From a virus: DNA of 64,000 bases. Position 1 is the stretch's first letter, and every line of letters starts with the position of its first letter. This document shows positions 11,669 to 42,141 of the stretch, in pieces. Both the position numbers and the translations under genes were made by a program. The stretch lies in the IMG/VR virus record IMGVR_UViG_3300028746_000014, positions 1 to 64,000 of that record; one strand, given 5' to 3'. The notes beneath the pieces are model-generated. The model did no database searches and was not told the origin of the DNA. It saw nothing but the letters and a program-made list of their open reading frames with translations.

Positions 11669-13246
11669 ATGGATTTCATCCAACAGTTCAAGGCCGCCCG
11701 CCGCGTCTCCACTCCCATCATCAACATGCGTACGTTCGATGCCAAGGGACTCACCCGCAATATCAGTGCAGCACTGAACGGCACCCTCGATAGCACGCCT
11801 ATGCTCATCTGGGATTCTGTCCACGGTCTCCTGCCAATGAACAACACCAAGGCCAGCAAGGAAGCATACGCCACACTCATGGCGAAGGCCGGACTTGAGA
11901 CACCTGAGACGGTACAGTTGCCTGAGACACTGAAGGCTCTGGAGACGGATGGCGTCAGCGACATGATCGTGTTTATCTCTAACGCGCATCTGCTCTGGGG
12001 TGACCCCACCAACGTACAGGCCGTGTGGAACCTGCGAGACATCTACAAGAACGTGGGTAACATGCTCGTGCTCGTCAGCACACCCGGCGCGACTCTGCCC
12101 ATCGAGCTTCAGACGGACGTGCTTGTGCTTGATGAACCACTGCCCACACGTGAAGAGCTTGCGGTGATCGTACGCAATACGTTCAAGAGCGCGAACGCCG
12201 AGGCATCTCTGACCACCGACATCGAGAAGTCGGCAGTCGACGCGCTCATCGGTCTCTCGTCCTTCAGTGCAGATCAGGCGACCGCGATGTGCCTGACCAC
12301 TGAGAAGATACCGGGCAAGGAGAAGGAGTCCATCCGTAAAGGCACCCTCAGCATCACCGACCTCTGGGAGCGCAAGCGCCAGATCATCAACGCTACCCCC
12401 GGCCTGACCGTCTACAAGGGCAAGGAGACGCTGGATGACATCGGAGGCATCGAGAGTGCCAAAGAGTTCTACCGGGCCGTCATGACCGGCAAGAACGCGC
12501 CTGAAGTCATCCTCTTCATCGACGAGATCGAGAAGCAGATGGCCGGTAACGGTACGGACTCGTCGGGCACCAAGACGGAAATGAACGGTATCATCCTCTC
12601 GTGGATGGAAGACAAGGGCGTCAATGGTGCGCTGAGCATCGGCATCCCCGGCGTGTCCAAGTCGCAACTGGCCAAGAGTCTGGGAGCCACCTACAACAAG
12701 CCCGTCATCGTCTTCGACATCGCCGCCATGCAAGACATGCACGTCGGTAACTCTGGCCACAACCTGCGCACCGCGACCAAGACCATCGACGCCATCAGCA
12801 GTGGCAACGTGCTCTGCATCGCTACCTGCAACGGCATCGCCAACCTACCGCCTGAGCTTCGCCGCCGCTTCTCTCTCGTCAAGTTCTTCTTTGACTCTCC
12901 GAATGCGTCAGAGCGCGATGAAATCTGGGCCATCCAACGCCGCAACCACGGACTCGTCAACGACGAACCGAACCCACCGAGCGAGAACTGGACGGGCGCT
13001 GAGATTCGTGACTGCTGCAAGAAGGCAGACATGCTCAACTGGACACTGGCGAAGGCTGCAACGTACATCGTACCGTCAGCCATCTCTGACGCCGCCACAC
13101 TTGAGAAGACGCGCCTAGAGGCATCTGGACGCTATCTGAGTGCATCCAAGGTGGGCACCTACTACCACGATGAGACCACGCGTAAGGATAACAGCGACAT
13201 CACCGGCCCCGTCTTCGCGGGTTCAGGTAGAAAGATCAGGGACTAA
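11669..13246 (+). CDS. Ycf46-like AAA+ ATPase with Walker B placed before Walker A; C-terminal tag
   Basis: 525 residues. The N-terminal half resembles the regulatory part of Ycf46-type ATPases: MLVLVSTPGATLPIEL, then VLVLDEPLPTREEL, and LDDIGG at 255-260. What follows is unusual. A Walker B strand VILFIDEIEK (D285, E286) comes first, then the Walker A loop GIPGVSKS (325-332, with Ser in place of the Gly before the Lys), then VGNSGHNLR, the sensor-1 strand VLCIATCN (N388) and ELRRRF with candidate arginine fingers (398-400). In ordinary AAA+ proteins Walker A precedes Walker B. Because all elements are present and the DEIEK/GIPG sequences are intact, I read this as a circularly shifted core rather than decay. 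It ends GRKIRD, a tag variant. DUF1257 and DUF2997 genes follow. Role unknown; ATP-driven remodelling is inferred. Confidence 0.8.
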   Translation: MDFIQQFKAARRVSTPIINMRTFDAKGLTRNISAALNGTLDSTPMLIWDSVHGLLPMNNTKASKEAYATLMAKAGLETPETVQLPETLKALETDGVSDMIVFISNAHLLWGDPTNVQAVWNLRDIYKNVGNMLVLVSTPGATLPIELQTDVLVLDEPLPTREELAVIVRNTFKSANAEASLTTDIEKSAVDALIGLSSFSADQATAMCLTTEKIPGKEKESIRKGTLSITDLWERKRQIINATPGLTVYKGKETLDDIGGIESAKEFYRAVMTGKNAPEVILFIDEIEKQMAGNGTDSSGTKTEMNGIILSWMEDKGVNGALSIGIPGVSKSQLAKSLGATYNKPVIVFDIAAMQDMHVGNSGHNLRTATKTIDAISSGNVLCIATCNGIANLPPELRRRFSLVKFFFDSPNASERDEIWAIQRRNHGLVNDEPNPPSENWTGAEIRDCCKKADMLNWTLAKAATYIVPSAISDAATLEKTRLEASGRYLSASKVGTYYHDETTRKDNSDITGPVFAGSGRKIRD

Positions 13247-14021: not shown

Positions 14022-14477
14022 ATGAGTGAGTACGCAACAGCCGCAACAACTTTCAACGATGGCAAGGTATTGCTGGCCGCGTTGTTCGAGATGGGGTACA
14101 CCGAGGTGGAAGACCACATCGGCAATCCTCAGCCCCTCGTCGGCTACCAAGGGGACTACCGCACACTGGATGGCGTAGGCCATACCACCAACCCCGCCAA
14201 AGCGATGAAGGCCGACATCATCATCCGCCGCAAGCAGGTAGGCTCTTCGTCAAACGACATCGGGTTCACCCGTAATGCGGACGGCACCTACTCTGCCATC
14301 ATCTCCGACTTCGACTCTACCCGGCACAACGCAGGCTGGCTCAAGAGTGTGAAGCAGGAGTACTCGAAGCAGTTCGTCTTCGCCAACGCCAAGAAAGCTG
14401 GCTACAAGCTTGTGGTGAATAAGCAGGTCGAGCGCAACGGCAAGAAAGTCACCCAGTACAAGTACGCAATCGCCTAA
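14022..14477 (+). CDS. DUF1257 (Ycf35-like) protein
   Basis: 151 residues. The order of elements (ALFEMGYTEVEDHIG, ADIIIRRKQ, DIGFTRNADGTYSAIISDFD, VKQEYSKQFVFANAKKAGYKL) fits the DUF1257 family, related to Ycf35 of plastids and cyanobacteria. Biochemical function is not established. In bacteria DUF1257 genes are often neighbours of DUF2997 and AAA ATPase genes, and the same trio is present here. AAGGAG precedes the ATG. Confidence 0.7.
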   Translation: MSEYATAATTFNDGKVLLAALFEMGYTEVEDHIGNPQPLVGYQGDYRTLDGVGHTTNPAKAMKADIIIRRKQVGSSSNDIGFTRNADGTYSAIISDFDSTRHNAGWLKSVKQEYSKQFVFANAKKAGYKLVVNKQVERNGKKVTQYKYAIA

Positions 14478-14489
14478 GGAGGCCGCGAC

Positions 14490-14672
14490 ATGGCAAAGTT
14501 TGCCACGATTGAAATCGATGAGAACGGCGAGATTAGTGTTGAACTCGACGGCTTCAAGGGTGTAGGATGTGCAGCAGTGATGGACACCCTCACCAAAGGT
14601 TCTAAGGTCACTCACCGGCAGAAAAAGCCTGAGTACCGGACGACGACAACCACAACAGTGTGCGCTAAGTAA
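14490..14672 (+). CDS. DUF2997 protein
   Basis: 60 residues, 12 nt after DUF1257. The pattern TIEIDENGEISVELDGFKGVGC, then VMDTLTKGSKVTHRQKKPEY, fits the DUF2997 family (an acidic I-D-x-x-G strand, a G-x-x-C turn, and a short helix). Family function is unknown; constant pairing with DUF1257 suggests a joint complex. Confidence 0.7.
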   Translation: MAKFATIEIDENGEISVELDGFKGVGCAAVMDTLTKGSKVTHRQKKPEYRTTTTTTVCAK

Positions 14673-15649: not shown

Positions 15650-16594
15650 ATGGCATTCGCAATCGACACAGAGAAAGTCAACCACTCCTCCAAAGACCTC
15701 ACCGAGATCGTGTCCAAGACTGTTCTCCTCAAAGTCAAGTACGGTCGTCTGGGCAACACCCGCAACGTGGCCGGTGCATCGGTCCTCAGCACTGACGCCG
15801 ACGTATCCCTGCTGAAGGTATCGAAGACCCTCCTCGAATCGGACGAGCTTGAGAAGATTCGCAAGCACGACAGCATTCTGCGCAAGTGGCTGAACAACAC
15901 GGCCCTGCCGTACAAGGACATCGGCATCCTCATGGTGCCCGTGGGTGTGGTCCCTGAGGTTCAGCAGCGTCTCACAGAGCACGCGGCAGAGCGTAAAGAC
16001 CTCGTGGCCAAGTTCGTCGCCGCGTACCCCGGCCTCGTCGAGGCGTCCAAAGAGTCGCTGGGCAGTCTGGCCGTGGCCTCCGAGTATCCCCCGGTTGATC
16101 TGGTCTCCAGCTACTTCACCTTCGAGTGGGACTACCTGACCTTCGGCGTGCCTCTGAACCTGAAGGACATCAACCCTGAGTTGTTCGAAGCTGAGGCGGC
16201 CAAGGCACAAAAGCAGATTCAGGCCGTGGGTGAAGAGATCACGATCATGATGCGCGAGAACCTTCTCGAAGCTGTCATGCACCTCAAGTCGAAGCTTACC
16301 CCGGACGGCGAAGGCAAGATGCCCATCCTCCGCGAGTCAGCCATCCAGAACATTCAGGAGTTCATCTCAACCTTCGACATGCGCAACATCACCAGCGATA
16401 CCGAGCTGGAGGAGCAGGTTGCCAAGCTTCGCGGCCTGATCGAGGGGCAGAGTGCGAAGACGTTGAAGAGCAGCGACAAGTTCAAGGCCGACCTGTTGAA
16501 GGGTGTGGAGTCCATTGGTGAGGCGCTGGATGGCCTCGTGTACCAGTCCACTGGCCGCAAGTTCCGCGACGAGGAGGAACCAGTCGCGGCATAG
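15650..16594 (+). CDS. DUF3150-like protein with C-terminal tag
   Basis: 314 residues. The middle (WLNNTALPYKDIGILMVPVG, LVAKFVAAYPGLVEASKES, FTFEWDYLTFGVPLNL, RESAIQNIQEFISTFDMRNI) matches the layout of DUF3150 proteins, which tend to be encoded beside AAA/MoxR-type ATPases. Coiled-coil content is high from residue 180. It ends GRKFRDEEEPVAA, so the tag lies seven residues from the terminus. Own promoter (15579) and AAGGAG. A partnership with the permuted ATPase 2.4 kb upstream is suggested by the shared tag and by the family's usual neighbours. Confidence 0.65.
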   Translation: MAFAIDTEKVNHSSKDLTEIVSKTVLLKVKYGRLGNTRNVAGASVLSTDADVSLLKVSKTLLESDELEKIRKHDSILRKWLNNTALPYKDIGILMVPVGVVPEVQQRLTEHAAERKDLVAKFVAAYPGLVEASKESLGSLAVASEYPPVDLVSSYFTFEWDYLTFGVPLNLKDINPELFEAEAAKAQKQIQAVGEEITIMMRENLLEAVMHLKSKLTPDGEGKMPILRESAIQNIQEFISTFDMRNITSDTELEEQVAKLRGLIEGQSAKTLKSSDKFKADLLKGVESIGEALDGLVYQSTGRKFRDEEEPVAA

Positions 16595-22500: not shown

Positions 22501-23745
22501 ATGCTCATAGGGCTACCACCTGAGATGTTGAATCAGTTTACCGCCAGTGGAGCAATGCTTCTAGTTATGGGTGGTGTGATGGCCTACATGAAATCAGTGC
22601 CGCAGATGATTTGGCTCTGGTTCAAACGACAAGTACTCGTAAGCGTAACAGTGAAGGACGACGACCCTTCCTTTCTTTGGGTGAAGGAGTGGATCACCAA
22701 GCAGAAATTCATGCCGCGTGTACGCCGCGTCGATCTTGACTCGACCATCCGTGGCAAGCTCATCTCTCTGATGCCCGCGCCGGGGGAGCACTTCTTCTGG
22801 CACAAGCGTCTACCATTCTGGCTGAACTACACGCGGAGCGAGGATAAGAAGGGCGGCTGGGACGCGAAGAGGAGTGAGACAATCTCCTTCAGCACGATTG
22901 GCCGCAGGCAGGAACGCATCAAGCAGTTCGTTACCGAGATCATCGAGATTCACAAAGAGGCTGAGCGTAGTGAGAGCAAGCTGTATGTGTGGGACGAGTA
23001 CTGGATAAAGCTGAGGAGCTATTCGCCGCGTACGTTTGAGTCCGTGGTGCTCGACGGGCAGGAGAAGGAGAAACTGCTGCAAGACGTAAACGAGTTCCTA
23101 GGCGACAAGGAACGCTATAGGGAGCTGGGTATCCCTTACCATCGTGGCTACGCCTTCTATGGGCCTCCGGGGACCGGCAAGACATCCTTGGCGTCAGGGT
23201 TAGCGTACCAACTGAGCCGGGACATTTACCTGATGAACCTTGGTGACCTGAGTGACAAGGGATTGAAGACTGCGATAAGCACTGTGCCCGAAGGTTCGAT
23301 CATCATGTTCGAGGACATCGACGCATCTGGTGCTGGCAAGAAACGCAAGGCCACTAATGACGGCCCAAGGGATCAGGAGTGGAAGGAAGGCGTAACACCC
23401 GGACCCCACCCGAACAAAGTTGAAGATAGTGATGGACACGAGAAGCTGTTTGGTGTTACACTATCTGGGTTACTGAATGTTCTCGATGGCTTTCATGCCC
23501 CTAGCGGCGTGATCTACATCATGACCACGAACCATCTCGACAATCTGGACCCGGCGTTGATTAGGCCCGGTCGGATCGATGTACTTCTGCACCTTGGTCA
23601 AGCGACCGACGATCAGAAGATCAAGCTGTACCAACGCTTTTACCCGGAGGATTCCCTAGCACAGGCGACCTCTTTTGTCAAGGGGCGGCCAGAAGGCGAT
23701 ACGATGGCTCAGTTCCAAGGCGCACTTCTAACGAAAAGGAGATAG
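22501..23745 (+). CDS. BCS1-like membrane-anchored AAA+ ATPase
   Basis: 414 residues. An N-terminal hydrophobic segment (about residues 15-35) is followed by a BCS1-type region and an AAA core: Walker A GPPGTGKT (221-228), Walker B IIMFED with E271/D272, sensor 1 in MTTNHLDNLDPALIRPGRID, which also carries the arginine finger. This layout is that of BCS1 family chaperones, known in mitochondria for protein translocation and in bacteria and phages with unclear clients. The insertion after Walker B (residues 276-310, basic then acidic) is long and likely disordered. ATP-driven protein handling at the inner membrane is inferred. Confidence 0.8.
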   Translation: MLIGLPPEMLNQFTASGAMLLVMGGVMAYMKSVPQMIWLWFKRQVLVSVTVKDDDPSFLWVKEWITKQKFMPRVRRVDLDSTIRGKLISLMPAPGEHFFWHKRLPFWLNYTRSEDKKGGWDAKRSETISFSTIGRRQERIKQFVTEIIEIHKEAERSESKLYVWDEYWIKLRSYSPRTFESVVLDGQEKEKLLQDVNEFLGDKERYRELGIPYHRGYAFYGPPGTGKTSLASGLAYQLSRDIYLMNLGDLSDKGLKTAISTVPEGSIIMFEDIDASGAGKKRKATNDGPRDQEWKEGVTPGPHPNKVEDSDGHEKLFGVTLSGLLNVLDGFHAPSGVIYIMTTNHLDNLDPALIRPGRIDVLLHLGQATDDQKIKLYQRFYPEDSLAQATSFVKGRPEGDTMAQFQGALLTKRR

Positions 23746-27709: not shown

Positions 27710-28141
27710 ATGGCGAAGAAGAAAAAGATCGTCGTGAAGCACATTGACGCAGCCAAGAACACGCAGGTCATCAAGACTGCGTTTCTTGAAGCTGTGCCAG
27801 ATATGATCGAGATCGGTGCAGTAGGCGGTATGTGGTCACCCATCCGTGGGGATCAGGCGTGCTTCTACGTGGAAGACAAGGGTAAGGTAGTTGGAATCCT
27901 CCAGTACTTCTTCGATGAGGATGACGATTCAGGCTGGGTTCAACTCGGCTGGGTCAACAAGGCGTATCGCGGGCGTGGTATCTACAAGGCCATGTGGAAG
28001 AAGTTTGAGAAAGCGACTTTGAAGCACGGCGGCAAGAAGGTCTGTGGTCTAGTCGTTCACGGTAACGAGCCGATGGAGAAGGCCGCTGCTGCAATGGGGC
28101 GCAAGATAACCAGTAGTGTGTGGACCAAGGAGCTGAAGTAA
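27710..28141 (+). CDS. GNAT-family N-acetyltransferase
   Basis: 143 residues. The central QLGWVNKAYRGRGIYKAMW contains the R-x-x-G-x-[G/A] acetyl-CoA pyrophosphate loop (motif A) followed by its helix; VVHGNEPMEKAAAAMG fits the later helix of the fold. The substrate is unknown: it could be a protein, a host toxin or an antibiotic-type molecule. It overlaps the RNA ligase start by 1 nt. Confidence 0.75.
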   Translation: MAKKKKIVVKHIDAAKNTQVIKTAFLEAVPDMIEIGAVGGMWSPIRGDQACFYVEDKGKVVGILQYFFDEDDDSGWVQLGWVNKAYRGRGIYKAMWKKFEKATLKHGGKKVCGLVVHGNEPMEKAAAAMGRKITSSVWTKELK

Positions 28142-29322
28142 TGTTGCTAAAAGACTACCTCGACGTAGACAAGCTTGAGCAGTATATCGCGGAGGGTCTA
28201 GTTACCCGTCGCGCTCACCCTGAGCTTCCGTTGTCGATCCTCTGCTATAGCAAGCAGGCGACCTTTGATAACGTCTGGGACGACATCACCATCAAGTGCC
28301 GTGGTCTCATCGTGGACGACAAGGGTGTCATCATCTCTCGTCCGTTCGAGAAGTTCTTCAACATCGACACGCTGGACCGGCCTGAGACTCTGTTCACCAA
28401 TCTGCCGGACCAACACCCTGCTGTCTTCGACAAGCTGGATGGGTCACTCGGTATCTTCTACGAGTACAAGGTAGGGAACGATACGTTCTTCGGTGTCGCG
28501 TCCAAAGGATCATTCACGTCTGACCACTCCAAGTGGGCGACGTACTGGTTCAGTAAGCACTGCAAGAACCACCAGTGGCCTGCGGGCTACACACCAGTCT
28601 TTGAGATGATCGCGCAGGCAGTTCAACGCCACGTGGTTCATTACGAGATCGAAGATCAACTAGTCTTACTGGCGCTCATCAACAACGAGACCGGCGAAGA
28701 GATTAGCTACAACGAGCTGTACCACTACGCATTCCTGAACGGACTAAAGACCGTCGAGATTTTTGCTAAGACGGTGAGCACGGTTCTAGTAGAGGATCGA
28801 CCGAACACGGAGGGCTACGTGCTGTCGTACTGGCGGCCCAACCTTCCGCCTTTGAAGATCAAGGTGAAGCATGAGACCTTCCTGAAGCTCCAGAAGATTG
28901 TTCACGCGGCGACCCCGAAGAACATCCTTGAGGCGCTGACGAACGGGGACTACGATATCATCGAGACATGGACGAAGGATGCTGGCCGACCGGAGCTTGT
29001 GAGCTTCGTTGAGGAGTGGCAGAAGACCTTCACCACTGCGTACGCTGGCATCATGCTTCAGACCAAGAAGATCGTAGACAATGCGCTTATCCGCAACTAC
29101 GAGAGTCGCAAGTCTGTTGCTGAGTTCTTCCTAACCGAGAAGGACGGCAAGTACTCTGGCCTCTGCTTCATGGCCTACGATGGCAAAGACCCGTCGCAGG
29201 CTGCGTGGAAGATGGTGCGCGACGAGTACCGTGAAGAGTTGAACCGGCCCGTTATGGGTGACCCAGATGATGACGACAACAACGGCGTCAAGCTGGTGAT
29301 GGAAGAGGAGAGTTATGCCTAA
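28141..29322 (+). CDS. RNA ligase, T4 Rnl1-like
   Basis: 393 residues. Motif I KLDGS starts at Lys98, nearly the same position as the adenylated lysine of T4 RNA ligase 1, and CRGLIVDDKGVIISRPFEKFFN just before it, EGYVLSYW and LKIKVKHETFLKL (motifs IV-V region) follow the Rnl1 order. The enzyme seals RNA ends, in T4 to restore tRNAs cut by host anticodon nucleases. An adjoining HAD phosphatase, a second RNA ligase and a tRNA-Trp gene fit an RNA-repair role. A C-terminal acidic tail (GDPDDDDNN) is notable. Confidence 0.85.
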   Translation: MLLKDYLDVDKLEQYIAEGLVTRRAHPELPLSILCYSKQATFDNVWDDITIKCRGLIVDDKGVIISRPFEKFFNIDTLDRPETLFTNLPDQHPAVFDKLDGSLGIFYEYKVGNDTFFGVASKGSFTSDHSKWATYWFSKHCKNHQWPAGYTPVFEMIAQAVQRHVVHYEIEDQLVLLALINNETGEEISYNELYHYAFLNGLKTVEIFAKTVSTVLVEDRPNTEGYVLSYWRPNLPPLKIKVKHETFLKLQKIVHAATPKNILEALTNGDYDIIETWTKDAGRPELVSFVEEWQKTFTTAYAGIMLQTKKIVDNALIRNYESRKSVAEFFLTEKDGKYSGLCFMAYDGKDPSQAAWKMVRDEYREELNRPVMGDPDDDDNNGVKLVMEEESYA

Positions 29323-34088: not shown

Positions 34089-34405
34089 TGTCAAAGCCCA
34101 AGATTTACGAACTCTCGAAAGAACAGAACGACGCGATGGGCAGTCTTGCTAACGGGAAGAGTCCGATCAAGATTGCCGTCGAGCCTAACCCTGAGGATGA
34201 CCAAGAGACAAAAGATCGCTTGACAAAAGTACTCGGACAGTGCGACGATCTAGTCAAGCTTGGATTCATCAAAGACATCACGAACAAGTACGCAGAGGAC
34301 GTAGCGATATCGAAGCTCAAGACTGGGCGCGGCATCAAGATGTTCCTCATCACCGATGTGGGCTACGATATGTTTCACGGCCCTAAGAACCCCACGATCC
34401 ACTAA
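34088..34405 (+). CDS. Hypothetical protein
   Basis: 105 residues, GTG start overlapping the helicase stop by 1 nt. Helical, with a LITDVGYDMFHGP end that resembles small winged-helix tails. Unrecognised. Confidence 0.5.
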   Translation: MSKPKIYELSKEQNDAMGSLANGKSPIKIAVEPNPEDDQETKDRLTKVLGQCDDLVKLGFIKDITNKYAEDVAISKLKTGRGIKMFLITDVGYDMFHGPKNPTIH

Positions 34406-34416
34406 CCTGCAAAGGA
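34402..34416 (+). repeat. Repeated leader, family 3 copy 2
   Basis: CTAACCTGCAAAGGA, identical to 14702-14716, ahead of the second RNA ligase start at 34422. Confidence 0.65.
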
Positions 34417-34421
34417 CGCCC

Positions 34422-35702
34422 ATGATTACGAACCAGTCTGACCTCGACGCCGTACTTGGAGAAGGTGCATCCAATACCATTCTCGGGTACAACACTATCC
34501 TTGACCGCCGCGACATCCCCGAGCCGAAGAAGGCCAACCATCAGGCCAAGATCGTGAAGATCGAAGCCCTCCTGCCCCACACCAATGCCGACTCCCTCTC
34601 CCTCGTTCAGATCGATGGCTTCCAAGTCGTCGTGCGTAAGGGTCAGTTCCATCCGGGTGATCTGGGCGTCTACATCCAGCCAGACTCCATCGTGCCCCAA
34701 ACCGAGGCGTTCAAGTTCATCTGGGAAGCGTACGTCGGCCTCGACGGTACGGTGCCTGAGAACAGACGGCGTATCACGGTACGCAAGTTCCGCAAGGAGT
34801 GGAGCGAAGGTCTCTTGCTTCCTCTCACTGACTTCACTGAGCTGACGGACGGCGCGACCGGCGCGGTCGATCCTTTCTGGAACGCACCGGGTCTGGACAT
34901 CTCCGACATCATCGGTGTGACACACTACGATCCCGATGTCGTCGAGAACACACAGGGAGCCAAGGCGTCGAGTGCCAACTCACCGCGCCGAAAGTTCCGG
35001 TACCCACGTACTCTCCGTGGCTGGTTCCATCTCATCAAGCGTATCATCGCTGGGCGCTCGTTGCGTGAGACGACCAAAGACGTGTCGTTCAGCATCCCCG
35101 TCTTCGACGTGGAGGGCTTCAAGAACTACCCGAACACGTTCGAGGAGAACGAGCAGGTAGTTGTTACTGAGAAGGTCCACGGATCGAATGCGCGGTTCAT
35201 CGCCATCGATGGTGAAATCTTCGTGGGTTCCCGTAACCAGTGGAAGGCCGACAACGGTTCGACCGTCTGGCACAAGGTTCTCAAACAGAACGAAGACCTG
35301 ACGCGCTGGCTGCTTGAGCACCCCGGCCATGCAATCTACGGAGAGGTGACACCTACCCAGAAGAACTTCCCGTACGGGCCGAAGGACGATGCTGTGGAGG
35401 GTGAGGTTCGGTTCTTTGCCTTCGACATCCTGACCCCGCAACGCGAGTGGATGGACTACGGTTCCTTTAGCTTCTCTCTGCTGTCGTACCCCGGCATCGA
35501 GATGGCACCCCTCCTGTACCTTGGGCCGTACAACAAAGACAAGATCATGACGCTGGTGGATGGACCTTCATGGGTCTACCGTGCTAACCACATCCGCGAG
35601 GGTGTCGTCATCAAGGCCACCAAGGAGCGCACGGTTCGAGGACTGGGCCGAGCGATGCTAAAAATCGTGTCGAACACTTTCTTAGAGGGTGACTCTAAGT
35701 AA
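34422..35702 (+). CDS. RNA ligase, Rnl5/DraRnl-like
   Basis: 426 residues. An N-terminal OB-like domain (AKIVKIEALLPHTNADSLSLVQIDGFQVVVRKGQFHPGDLGVYIQP) precedes a nucleotidyltransferase with motif I EKVHGSN (Lys251) and motif IV REGVVIK. N-terminal OB plus C-terminal catalytic domain is the layout of the Deinococcus RNA ligase (DraRnl/Rnl5) family, which seals nicks with a 3'-OH RNA end. Together with the Rnl1-like enzyme at 28141 it gives this phage two different RNA ligases. The start follows a family-3 leader. Confidence 0.8.
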   Translation: MITNQSDLDAVLGEGASNTILGYNTILDRRDIPEPKKANHQAKIVKIEALLPHTNADSLSLVQIDGFQVVVRKGQFHPGDLGVYIQPDSIVPQTEAFKFIWEAYVGLDGTVPENRRRITVRKFRKEWSEGLLLPLTDFTELTDGATGAVDPFWNAPGLDISDIIGVTHYDPDVVENTQGAKASSANSPRRKFRYPRTLRGWFHLIKRIIAGRSLRETTKDVSFSIPVFDVEGFKNYPNTFEENEQVVVTEKVHGSNARFIAIDGEIFVGSRNQWKADNGSTVWHKVLKQNEDLTRWLLEHPGHAIYGEVTPTQKNFPYGPKDDAVEGEVRFFAFDILTPQREWMDYGSFSFSLLSYPGIEMAPLLYLGPYNKDKIMTLVDGPSWVYRANHIREGVVIKATKERTVRGLGRAMLKIVSNTFLEGDSK

Positions 35703-35775: not shown

Positions 35776-35850
35776 GGGCTGATAAGCTAATTGGTAAACT
35801 GTCTGCCTCCAAAGCAGAACTTCTTCGTTCGAGTCGAAGTCGGCCCGCCA
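35776..35850 (+). tRNA. tRNA-Trp, anticodon CCA, CCA end encoded
   Basis: The 7-bp acceptor stem GGGCTGA/TCGGCCC, anticodon stem TCTGC/GCAGA with loop CTCCAAA (anticodon CCA at 35809-35811), and T stem CTTCG/CGAAG with loop TTCGAGT are all present; the 3' end GCCA is encoded. The D stem is weaker (one mismatch). Phage tRNAs can replace host tRNAs destroyed by defence nucleases, matching the two RNA ligases nearby. Confidence 0.9.
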
Positions 35851-40660: not shown

Positions 40661-41096
40661 AGCTCCTGAGGAGGTACGGTTCATCCCCACGCCGAAGCAG
40701 TACACGCGGGCCGAGGCCGGGAAGCTCAACCTGAAGAACTTCACCCACAAGCATCAGACTGTTCCGATGTGTGGGCACAAGTTCATCGCTCAGCGAGAGC
40801 CGCGTCACTCGAACTGCGAGGCTTGCTGGTTCGCGTTCTTCAACGTGCATGGTGAGTTTACCCAAGCCGTCGAGGATGCACACGCCAAGGGCGGCGACGA
40901 TATGATTATCGCGCTCAAGGGCAGGAAGTTTCTCCAGAGGTTCCTTCGGTTCATGGGCAGTGTGGCCAAGCTGAAGATGGCACTGGAGGCAAAGGAAAAG
41001 AACAATGGGAGCACTCAACCAACTGAAGGGAGTATTAGGCACGGCGAAACCGTCACCCAAGGCGACCTCTTCGGTACCACCGCCAGCGGCAGCTAA
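40653..41096 (+). CDS. Hypothetical protein with Cys/His segment
   Basis: 147 residues from ATG 40653, overlapping by 8 nt upstream and by 92 nt with recA. HQTVPMCGHKFIAQREPRHSNCEACWFAFF contains C, H, C, C at spacings compatible with zinc binding. ALKGRKFLQRF is an internal chance resemblance to the tag. Unrecognised. Confidence 0.55.
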   Translation: MTEAPEEVRFIPTPKQYTRAEAGKLNLKNFTHKHQTVPMCGHKFIAQREPRHSNCEACWFAFFNVHGEFTQAVEDAHAKGGDDMIIALKGRKFLQRFLRFMGSVAKLKMALEAKEKNNGSTQPTEGSIRHGETVTQGDLFGTTASGS

Positions 41097-42141
41097 GGGG
41101 CTAAGCAAGAAGGAACGCTTCGCCATGCTGGACGCAGTAGCGGTAACACTCAACAAGCAGTTCAGCACGGATGAGAACAAGGTCACCACGTCTCTCGTGC
41201 GCCTAGACAAAAAGCTGGGTGTACCAATGCCCAGCTTCTCTACCGGCATGATGTCGGTGGACTACGGAGTCATCGGGTGCGGCGGCGTACCTAAGGGCCG
41301 CATCATCGAAATCTTCGGGCCTCCGTCAGCCGGTAAGACTACCATCACTCTGGAGATCATTGCCGATGTACAAGCACAGGGGGGAATTGCAGCGTTCGTG
41401 GATGCGGAGCACGCTCTCGATCCGAACTACGCTCAGGCGTTGGGAGTCAACGTCAAAGAACTCATGGTCTCTCAGCCCGACTCAGGGGAACAGGCTCTCG
41501 AAACTGCGGAAGCACTTGCGCTATCTGGAGCGGTTGATATCGTCGTGGTAGACTCAGTGGCCGCGCTCACACCTCAGGCTGAGCTTGATGGTGAGATGGG
41601 CGACAGTCACATGGGCCTACAGGCCCGACTGATGTCACAGGCTATGCGTAAGCTGCGGGGCGCGTGCGCTCGTAACAACGTGACCATCATCTTCATCAAC
41701 CAGATTCGTGAGAAGATCGGTGTGATGTTCGGCAGTCCTGAGACCACTACAGGAGGCAAGGCGTTGCCCTTCTACGCCTCTGTACGCCTCGACGTTCGTC
41801 GTCTGGGTGGGGATGGGTCAAAGATCACGAGCGGCGGCGTGGAGATCGGTGTAAAGACCAAGATCAAAGCCGTGAAGAATAAAGCCGGTGCGCCGTTCCG
41901 CCAGACTGAAGTGAACCTCATCTACGGTAAGGGTATCGACAAGTTCGCAGACATGGTAAAATTTGCCAAGGACTGCGGCGTCATCACTGGTACGAGCTGG
42001 CTGAGCTTCAACGGAGAGCAGCTAGGTCAGGGTCTCGACAAAACGGTGTTGACACTTCGGGACAATCCTGATACAGTGGAGAAGATCAAGAAGGAAATTG
42101 CTAAGGCTATACAGGCCCAGCAGGAAGCAGACGCGCAATGA
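41005..42141 (+). CDS. recA: RecA recombinase
   Basis: 378 residues with all classical parts: Walker A GPPSAGKTT (105-113), the catalytic Glu/adenine region AAFVDAEHALDPNYA, Walker B IVVVDSVAAL, MGLQARLMSQAMRKL (L1), INQIREKIGVMFGSPETTTGGKALPFYASVRLDVRR (L2 region). It is closer in length and motifs to bacterial RecA than to T4 UvsX, so it promotes strand exchange in recombination-dependent replication or repair. The N-terminal 50 residues are variable and Pro-rich. Its start overlaps the preceding gene by 92 nt, and a promoter for the following genes is inside its 3' end. Confidence 0.95.
   Translation: MGALNQLKGVLGTAKPSPKATSSVPPPAAAKGLSKKERFAMLDAVAVTLNKQFSTDENKVTTSLVRLDKKLGVPMPSFSTGMMSVDYGVIGCGGVPKGRIIEIFGPPSAGKTTITLEIIADVQAQGGIAAFVDAEHALDPNYAQALGVNVKELMVSQPDSGEQALETAEALALSGAVDIVVVDSVAALTPQAELDGEMGDSHMGLQARLMSQAMRKLRGACARNNVTIIFINQIREKIGVMFGSPETTTGGKALPFYASVRLDVRRLGGDGSKITSGGVEIGVKTKIKAVKNKAGAPFRQTEVNLIYGKGIDKFADMVKFAKDCGVITGTSWLSFNGEQLGQGLDKTVLTLRDNPDTVEKIKKEIAKAIQAQQEADAQ
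42049..42077 (+). promoter_or_regulatory. Promoter inside recA, TTGACA-N17-TACAGT
   Basis: A perfect -35, exact 17-nt spacer and TACAGT -10 are found within the coding sequence near the recA end, 61 nt before the next gene. The downstream late/lysis-type genes (42138-45620) can thus be switched separately. Confidence 0.6.

Follow-up and report, generated by a model that had tools for sequence, protein, structure and literature searches.

A Ycf46-like phage ATPase with transposed Walker A and Walker B blocks in its predicted AAA+ core

The window analysed here, a 64-kb stretch that forms part of a 96.7-kb virus record, encodes a Ycf46-like protein of 525 residues in which the Walker B motif precedes the P-loop, together with three genes that belong to the same module and whose products are also common partners of relatives with the ordinary motif order (hereafter ordinary relatives). 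The features are as follows, all on the plus strand.

11669–13246, +, permuted Ycf46-like AAA+ ATPase, 525 aa (PF00004, E = 1.2e-10, in pieces)
11669–12391, +, residues 1–241, predicted AAA-like module at the N-terminus, degenerate and lacking Walker motifs (AlphaFold2 (AF2), Foldseek, collinearity with ordinary relatives)
12506–12619, +, transposed block 1, residues 280–317: β3 (Walker B VILFIDEIEK) and α3, corresponding to profile positions 338–375 of ordinary relatives
12506–12535, +, Walker B VILFIDEIEK, residues 280–289 (D285/E286), from sequence and conservation
12623–12799, +, transposed block 2, residues 319–377: β1, P-loop, α1, β2, pore-loop region and α2, corresponding to profile positions 278–336
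12641–12664, +, Walker A GIPGVSKS, residues 325–332 (G325, G328 and K331 in 57/57 members; S/T332 in 57/57)
12809–12832, +, β4 and sensor 1 VLCIATCN, residues 381–388 (N388 in 57/57)
12860–12868, +, arginine-finger region R398–R400 (R400 in 57/57; putative finger role, from general AAA+ knowledge)
14022–14477, +, DUF1257 (Ycf35-like) protein, module partner (PF06868, E = 5.6e-12)
14490–14672, +, DUF2997 protein, module partner (PF11211, E = 1.4e-6)
15650–16594, +, DUF3150-like protein with long helices (57/61 loci; AF2 pLDDT 91)

The Pfam AAA family matched the protein in fragments only, and along the chain its motifs ran Walker B, Walker A, sensor 1 rather than in the usual A–B–sensor 1 sequence, which makes it a permuted variant of the AAA+ superfamily. 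A preliminary description, made from the letters alone, had placed the DEIEK strand, the P-loop, N388 and arginines 398–400 at coordinates and residues that proved exact when checked against the sequence. The motif residues themselves have the forms found in AAA+ proteins: GxxGxxK[ST] in Walker A, hhhhDE in Walker B, and a sensor 1 Asn and an arginine region after β4.

A profile built from eight ordinary-order relatives was queried with the unaltered proteins. The window protein matched it in four pieces (residues 3–270, 280–316, 319–377 and 379–508 with profile positions 11–260, 338–375, 278–336 and 377–522, respectively) that tiled the protein almost gap-free, the middle two being exchanged, and four pieces with exactly one inversion were obtained for 57 of the 58 homologues. 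The reverse search, in which a permuted profile was applied to ordinary relatives, gave the mirror pattern in 15/15 cases, including the ordinary Ycf46-like gene of a Nitrospira genome that also has a permuted copy; on p97/Cdc48-type PDB chains the pieces were ordered 298–350, 253–297 and 357–436. Exchanging the blocks back on paper raised the best single match of the window protein from 89 to 230 bits, and the score rose in all 58 proteins tested, by a mean of 180 bits. The outer pieces of the window protein were collinear with ordinary Ycf46-like relatives (48–89 bits), and the core that runs uninterrupted in those relatives was broken by the block exchange. Because the blocks together cover the profile with hardly a gap, the rearrangement is a transposition of two adjacent internal blocks, not a circular permutation, and the Walker B-before-Walker A order is not a product of chance. 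The shifted AAA+ core proposed in the preliminary description is thus borne out, with the refinement that two neighbouring blocks have changed places inside the domain. No second Walker B is present: a Walker-B-like stretch between the P-loop and sensor 1 occurred in 0/57 homologues.

AF2, run on the monomer with a 57-row alignment, returned a model of the window protein with pLDDT 92 and pTM 0.85. The predicted elements are β3 (280–284), α3 (301–316), β1 (319–325), α1 (331–341), β2 (346–349), α2 (361–377), β4 (381–387), β5 (404–408) and the lid, so that all five core strands follow one another in permuted order along the chain, with lid helices of high pLDDT. Residues 280–284, whose part in the ATP site the preliminary description had left to structure prediction, are modelled as a strand of the length usual for the core, within an AAA+ fold predicted with confidence. 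In Foldseek searches the full-length model matched the tandem-AAA proteins p97/Cdc48/NVL (best E = 9e-14) and phage Ycf46-like models (2e-25); because Foldseek aligns in chain order and penalizes the swap, TM-scores reach a modest 0.54 for p97 and 0.65 for the best viral Ycf46-like model. A phmmer search of the PDB with the single window protein gave no match, and the family profile was needed to reach p97/Cdc48 chains. Given the Foldseek matches to two-domain AAA proteins, the N-terminal half of the model is interpreted as the first, degenerate one of two AAA modules.

The standard AAA+ sheet has the order 5-1-4-3-2, with all strands parallel. In the window protein the chain would run β3-α3-β1-α1-β2-α2-β4-β5-lid, and the three new joins (α0-β3, α3-β1 and α2-β4) would all fall on the sheet edge distant from the nucleotide, which would allow the fold and the ATP site to remain those of an ordinary AAA+ protein. 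Mg-ATP would be held by K331 and S332, E286 would activate the water, N388 would act as sensor 1 and R400 would serve the neighbouring subunit of a ring, while the first AAA tier would be catalytically dead. Sequence and model together point to a functional AAA+ ATPase in which a two-block exchange has rewired the catalytic domain from within, a reading to which we assign a probability of roughly 90%; the protein would most likely be a ring-forming ATPase or remodeller whose first AAA domain is degenerate and whose second, rewired domain is active.

A permuted core might instead exchange β3 and Walker B between the subunits of the ring by three-dimensional domain swapping, each ATP site then taking the Walker B of its neighbour. 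All elements are conserved, short linkers at the new joins could favour swapping, and a single-chain AF2 prediction is compatible with it. However, the monomer already folds confidently in the model with β3 as a strand, and the joins would fall at the sheet edge, where the chain could connect in the ordinary way within one subunit; we therefore consider subunit exchange improbable.

Conservation bears on the predicted activity of the rewired ATPase. In an alignment of 57 members that are 34–51% identical to the window protein, G325, G328, K331, E286, N388 and R400 are invariant, D285 is kept in 56/57 and position 332 is Ser or Thr in every member. Motif spacing is constant among permuted members, E286 and K331 being 43–51 residues apart and K331 and N388 57–60. 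The dN/dS of close pairs lies well below 1, and that of the core is 0.03–0.34 in measurable pairs and usually below the value for the whole gene; these pairs show purifying selection. The motif residues judged intact in the preliminary description are thus kept across the family and under selection. Its remark that Ser replaces the last Gly of the P-loop is correct for the window protein (Ser330), but the substitution is not diagnostic, the position being Ala in 25, Gly in 24 and Ser in 8 of the 57 members.

That variability, and the fact that activity is predicted from sequence, would suit an ATP-binding pseudo-ATPase or a structural scaffold, with the early DEIEK being a stretch of conserved surface rather than a Walker B. 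Against such a protein stand the invariance of E286, K331, N388 and R400 in 57 divergent members, the strong purifying selection, and the match of the DEIEK block to β3-α3 of ordinary relatives, at 10–30 bits in 15/15 cases; we regard it as very unlikely.

Two homologues carry local peculiarities. The Walker B of one (L059:5992-7650) reads EEIEK instead of DEIEK, with Glu in place of D285, and another (L068:5992-7929) harbours an intein inside the sensor-1 motif, at ATC/N. Inteins tend to occupy active-site motifs.

A relative from an isolated phage, gp103 of Tunturiibacter phage Tunturi_3, aligns with the window protein along its full length at 51% identity and shares the permuted order. Scans of viral and genome contigs yielded about 60 further members, and every full-length one that was read had the order B, A, sensor 1; the homologue comparison proposed in the preliminary description thus found the permuted order in 57/57 aligned members and in Tunturi_3. 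One member (L071) is frameshifted. The members are mostly of phage origin and come from IMG/VR viral contigs and bacterial metagenome-assembled genome (MAG) contigs, the latter labelled Acidobacteria, Nitrospira, Deltaproteobacteria, Gemmatimonadetes and Bacteroidetes. Full-length matches were rare in whole-genome samples of three phyla (3/297, 3/246 and 2/237 genomes), as expected of mobile or viral genes, and phage-type primase/helicase, Mu Gam-like or transposase genes lie near three of the MAG loci. Most homologues were gathered with short conserved peptide patterns as bait, which favours near relatives and a close clade. Unbiased tblastn against phages and plasmids dropped straight from Tunturi_3 to matches no more than about 30% identical; eight of them were read, and all had the ordinary order. 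The AAA-ATPases of Cluster O mycobacteriophages, suspected of being permuted from a match in two pieces, also proved to have the ordinary order. Since independent assemblies and an isolated phage share the permuted order, it is not an assembly error; an artefact of assembly or annotation, or the rearrangement of a decaying gene in a single phage, has nothing in its favour beyond the oddity itself and is already refuted by the recurrence of this order in about 60 contigs and Tunturi_3, by full-length open frames, and by conservation and selection.

A tree of 57 permuted and 15 ordinary proteins, inferred from the unswapped flanks only and midpoint-rooted, separated the two orders by a single change (SH-aLRT 100) and placed the permuted group as sister to, not inside, the sampled ordinary set. 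The permuted form, a single grouping on this tree, arose once in the lineage. Ordinary-order relatives occur in phages, plasmids and bacterial genomes, and p97 has the same order, so the ordinary arrangement is likely the ancestral state. The simplest route, and a plausible one, would be that the core was duplicated in tandem and the two copies then lost opposite halves; none of the 57 aligned homologues was an intermediate of this kind with a duplicated Walker B.

The genes around the permuted ATPase recur across loci: DUF1257 is found nearby at 47/61, DUF2997 at 37/61 and the DUF3150-like gene, the most constant neighbour, at 57/61. PF11348 is matched by 14 of 45 members of the DUF3150-like neighbour, whose model has no significant fold match in the PDB despite its confidence. 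In cyanobacteria, DUF2997 and DUF1257/Ycf35 form a ferredoxin-associated cluster (PMC4284462), and the carbonic anhydrase EcaB is less active when Ycf46 is lost (as cited in PMC7496141). From this cluster, the link between Ycf46 and EcaB, and the partners common to ordinary relatives, the most fitting reading of the function in the phage is ATP-driven remodelling in company with these small partners; ATP cycles would drive the remodelling of a protein substrate, with the DUF1257, DUF2997 and DUF3150-like products as putative adaptors or clients. Elsewhere on the plus strand the same phage encodes a second AAA ATPase, of the BCS1 type and with ordinary Walker order (22501–23742; BCS1_N PF08740, E = 1.9e-24), two RNA ligases (28120–29319 and 34356–35699; RNA_lig_T4_1 Pfam match; phrog_968), the second directly followed by a tRNA-Trp gene (35776–35850), and a RecA with a C-terminal domain (41005–42138; PF00154, E = 1.9e-111).

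AAA+ ATPases occur in all domains of life; the order of their motifs is regarded as a defining property and is assumed by profile tools. The preliminary description knew of no described AAA+ case of this kind, and we likewise found no description of a permuted AAA+ core in the open-access literature (subscription papers lay outside the search), including searches on Tunturiibacter phage and DUF3150; in candidate papers on 'permuted' proteins the term refers to methylases. The proteins described here are probably the first AAA+ family with an internally permuted core, a natural transposition of the Walker A and Walker B blocks that arose once, kept ATPase function and spread through phages of several bacterial phyla. 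As a family of about 60 members shares the swap and keeps every catalytic residue tested, reordering is possible in a core whose layout is generally taken to be fixed. The family offers natural tests of how far an AAA+ machine depends on chain connectivity as against the three-dimensional placement of its motifs, and of how non-circular permutations evolve. Permuted proteins receive fragmentary scores and too little annotation (here 'ATPase' or 'AAA family'), so that other permuted NTPases may hide in databases.

Among known systems, the anti-phage ATPase IetA of ietAS shares an AAA domain and weak matches with the permuted ATPase; its identity was rejected on a score of 22.6 against an NCBIfam cut-off of 510 bits, with no defence partner seen, and other defence models also gave weak matches. 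Ycf46-like AAA+ ATPases, represented by cyanobacterial and plastid Ycf46, Rhizobium phage RHph_I4, Mycobacterium phage Firecracker gp100 and a Ca. Manganitrophus plasmid, are collinear with it in the degenerate N-terminal AAA module and in the C-terminal part and have the same motifs and, in several cases, DUF1257/DUF2997 neighbours; however, Walker A precedes Walker B in all that were inspected, the K-to-E distance is exactly 54 residues (n = 14 measured), and identity to the permuted members searched is at most about 29%. The tandem AAA proteins p97/Cdc48/NVL likewise have two AAA modules, with profile and fold matches over both, but in the ordinary order throughout. The circularly permuted TRAFAC GTPases RsgA/YjeQ and YlqF/RbgA are P-loop NTPases that remain active with reordered motifs, and their permutation joins the old N and C ends and moves whole domain ends. 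In the phage ATPase, which is an AAA+ protein and not a GTPase, internal blocks are swapped instead, while the N-terminal helix, β4, β5 and the lid stay in place.
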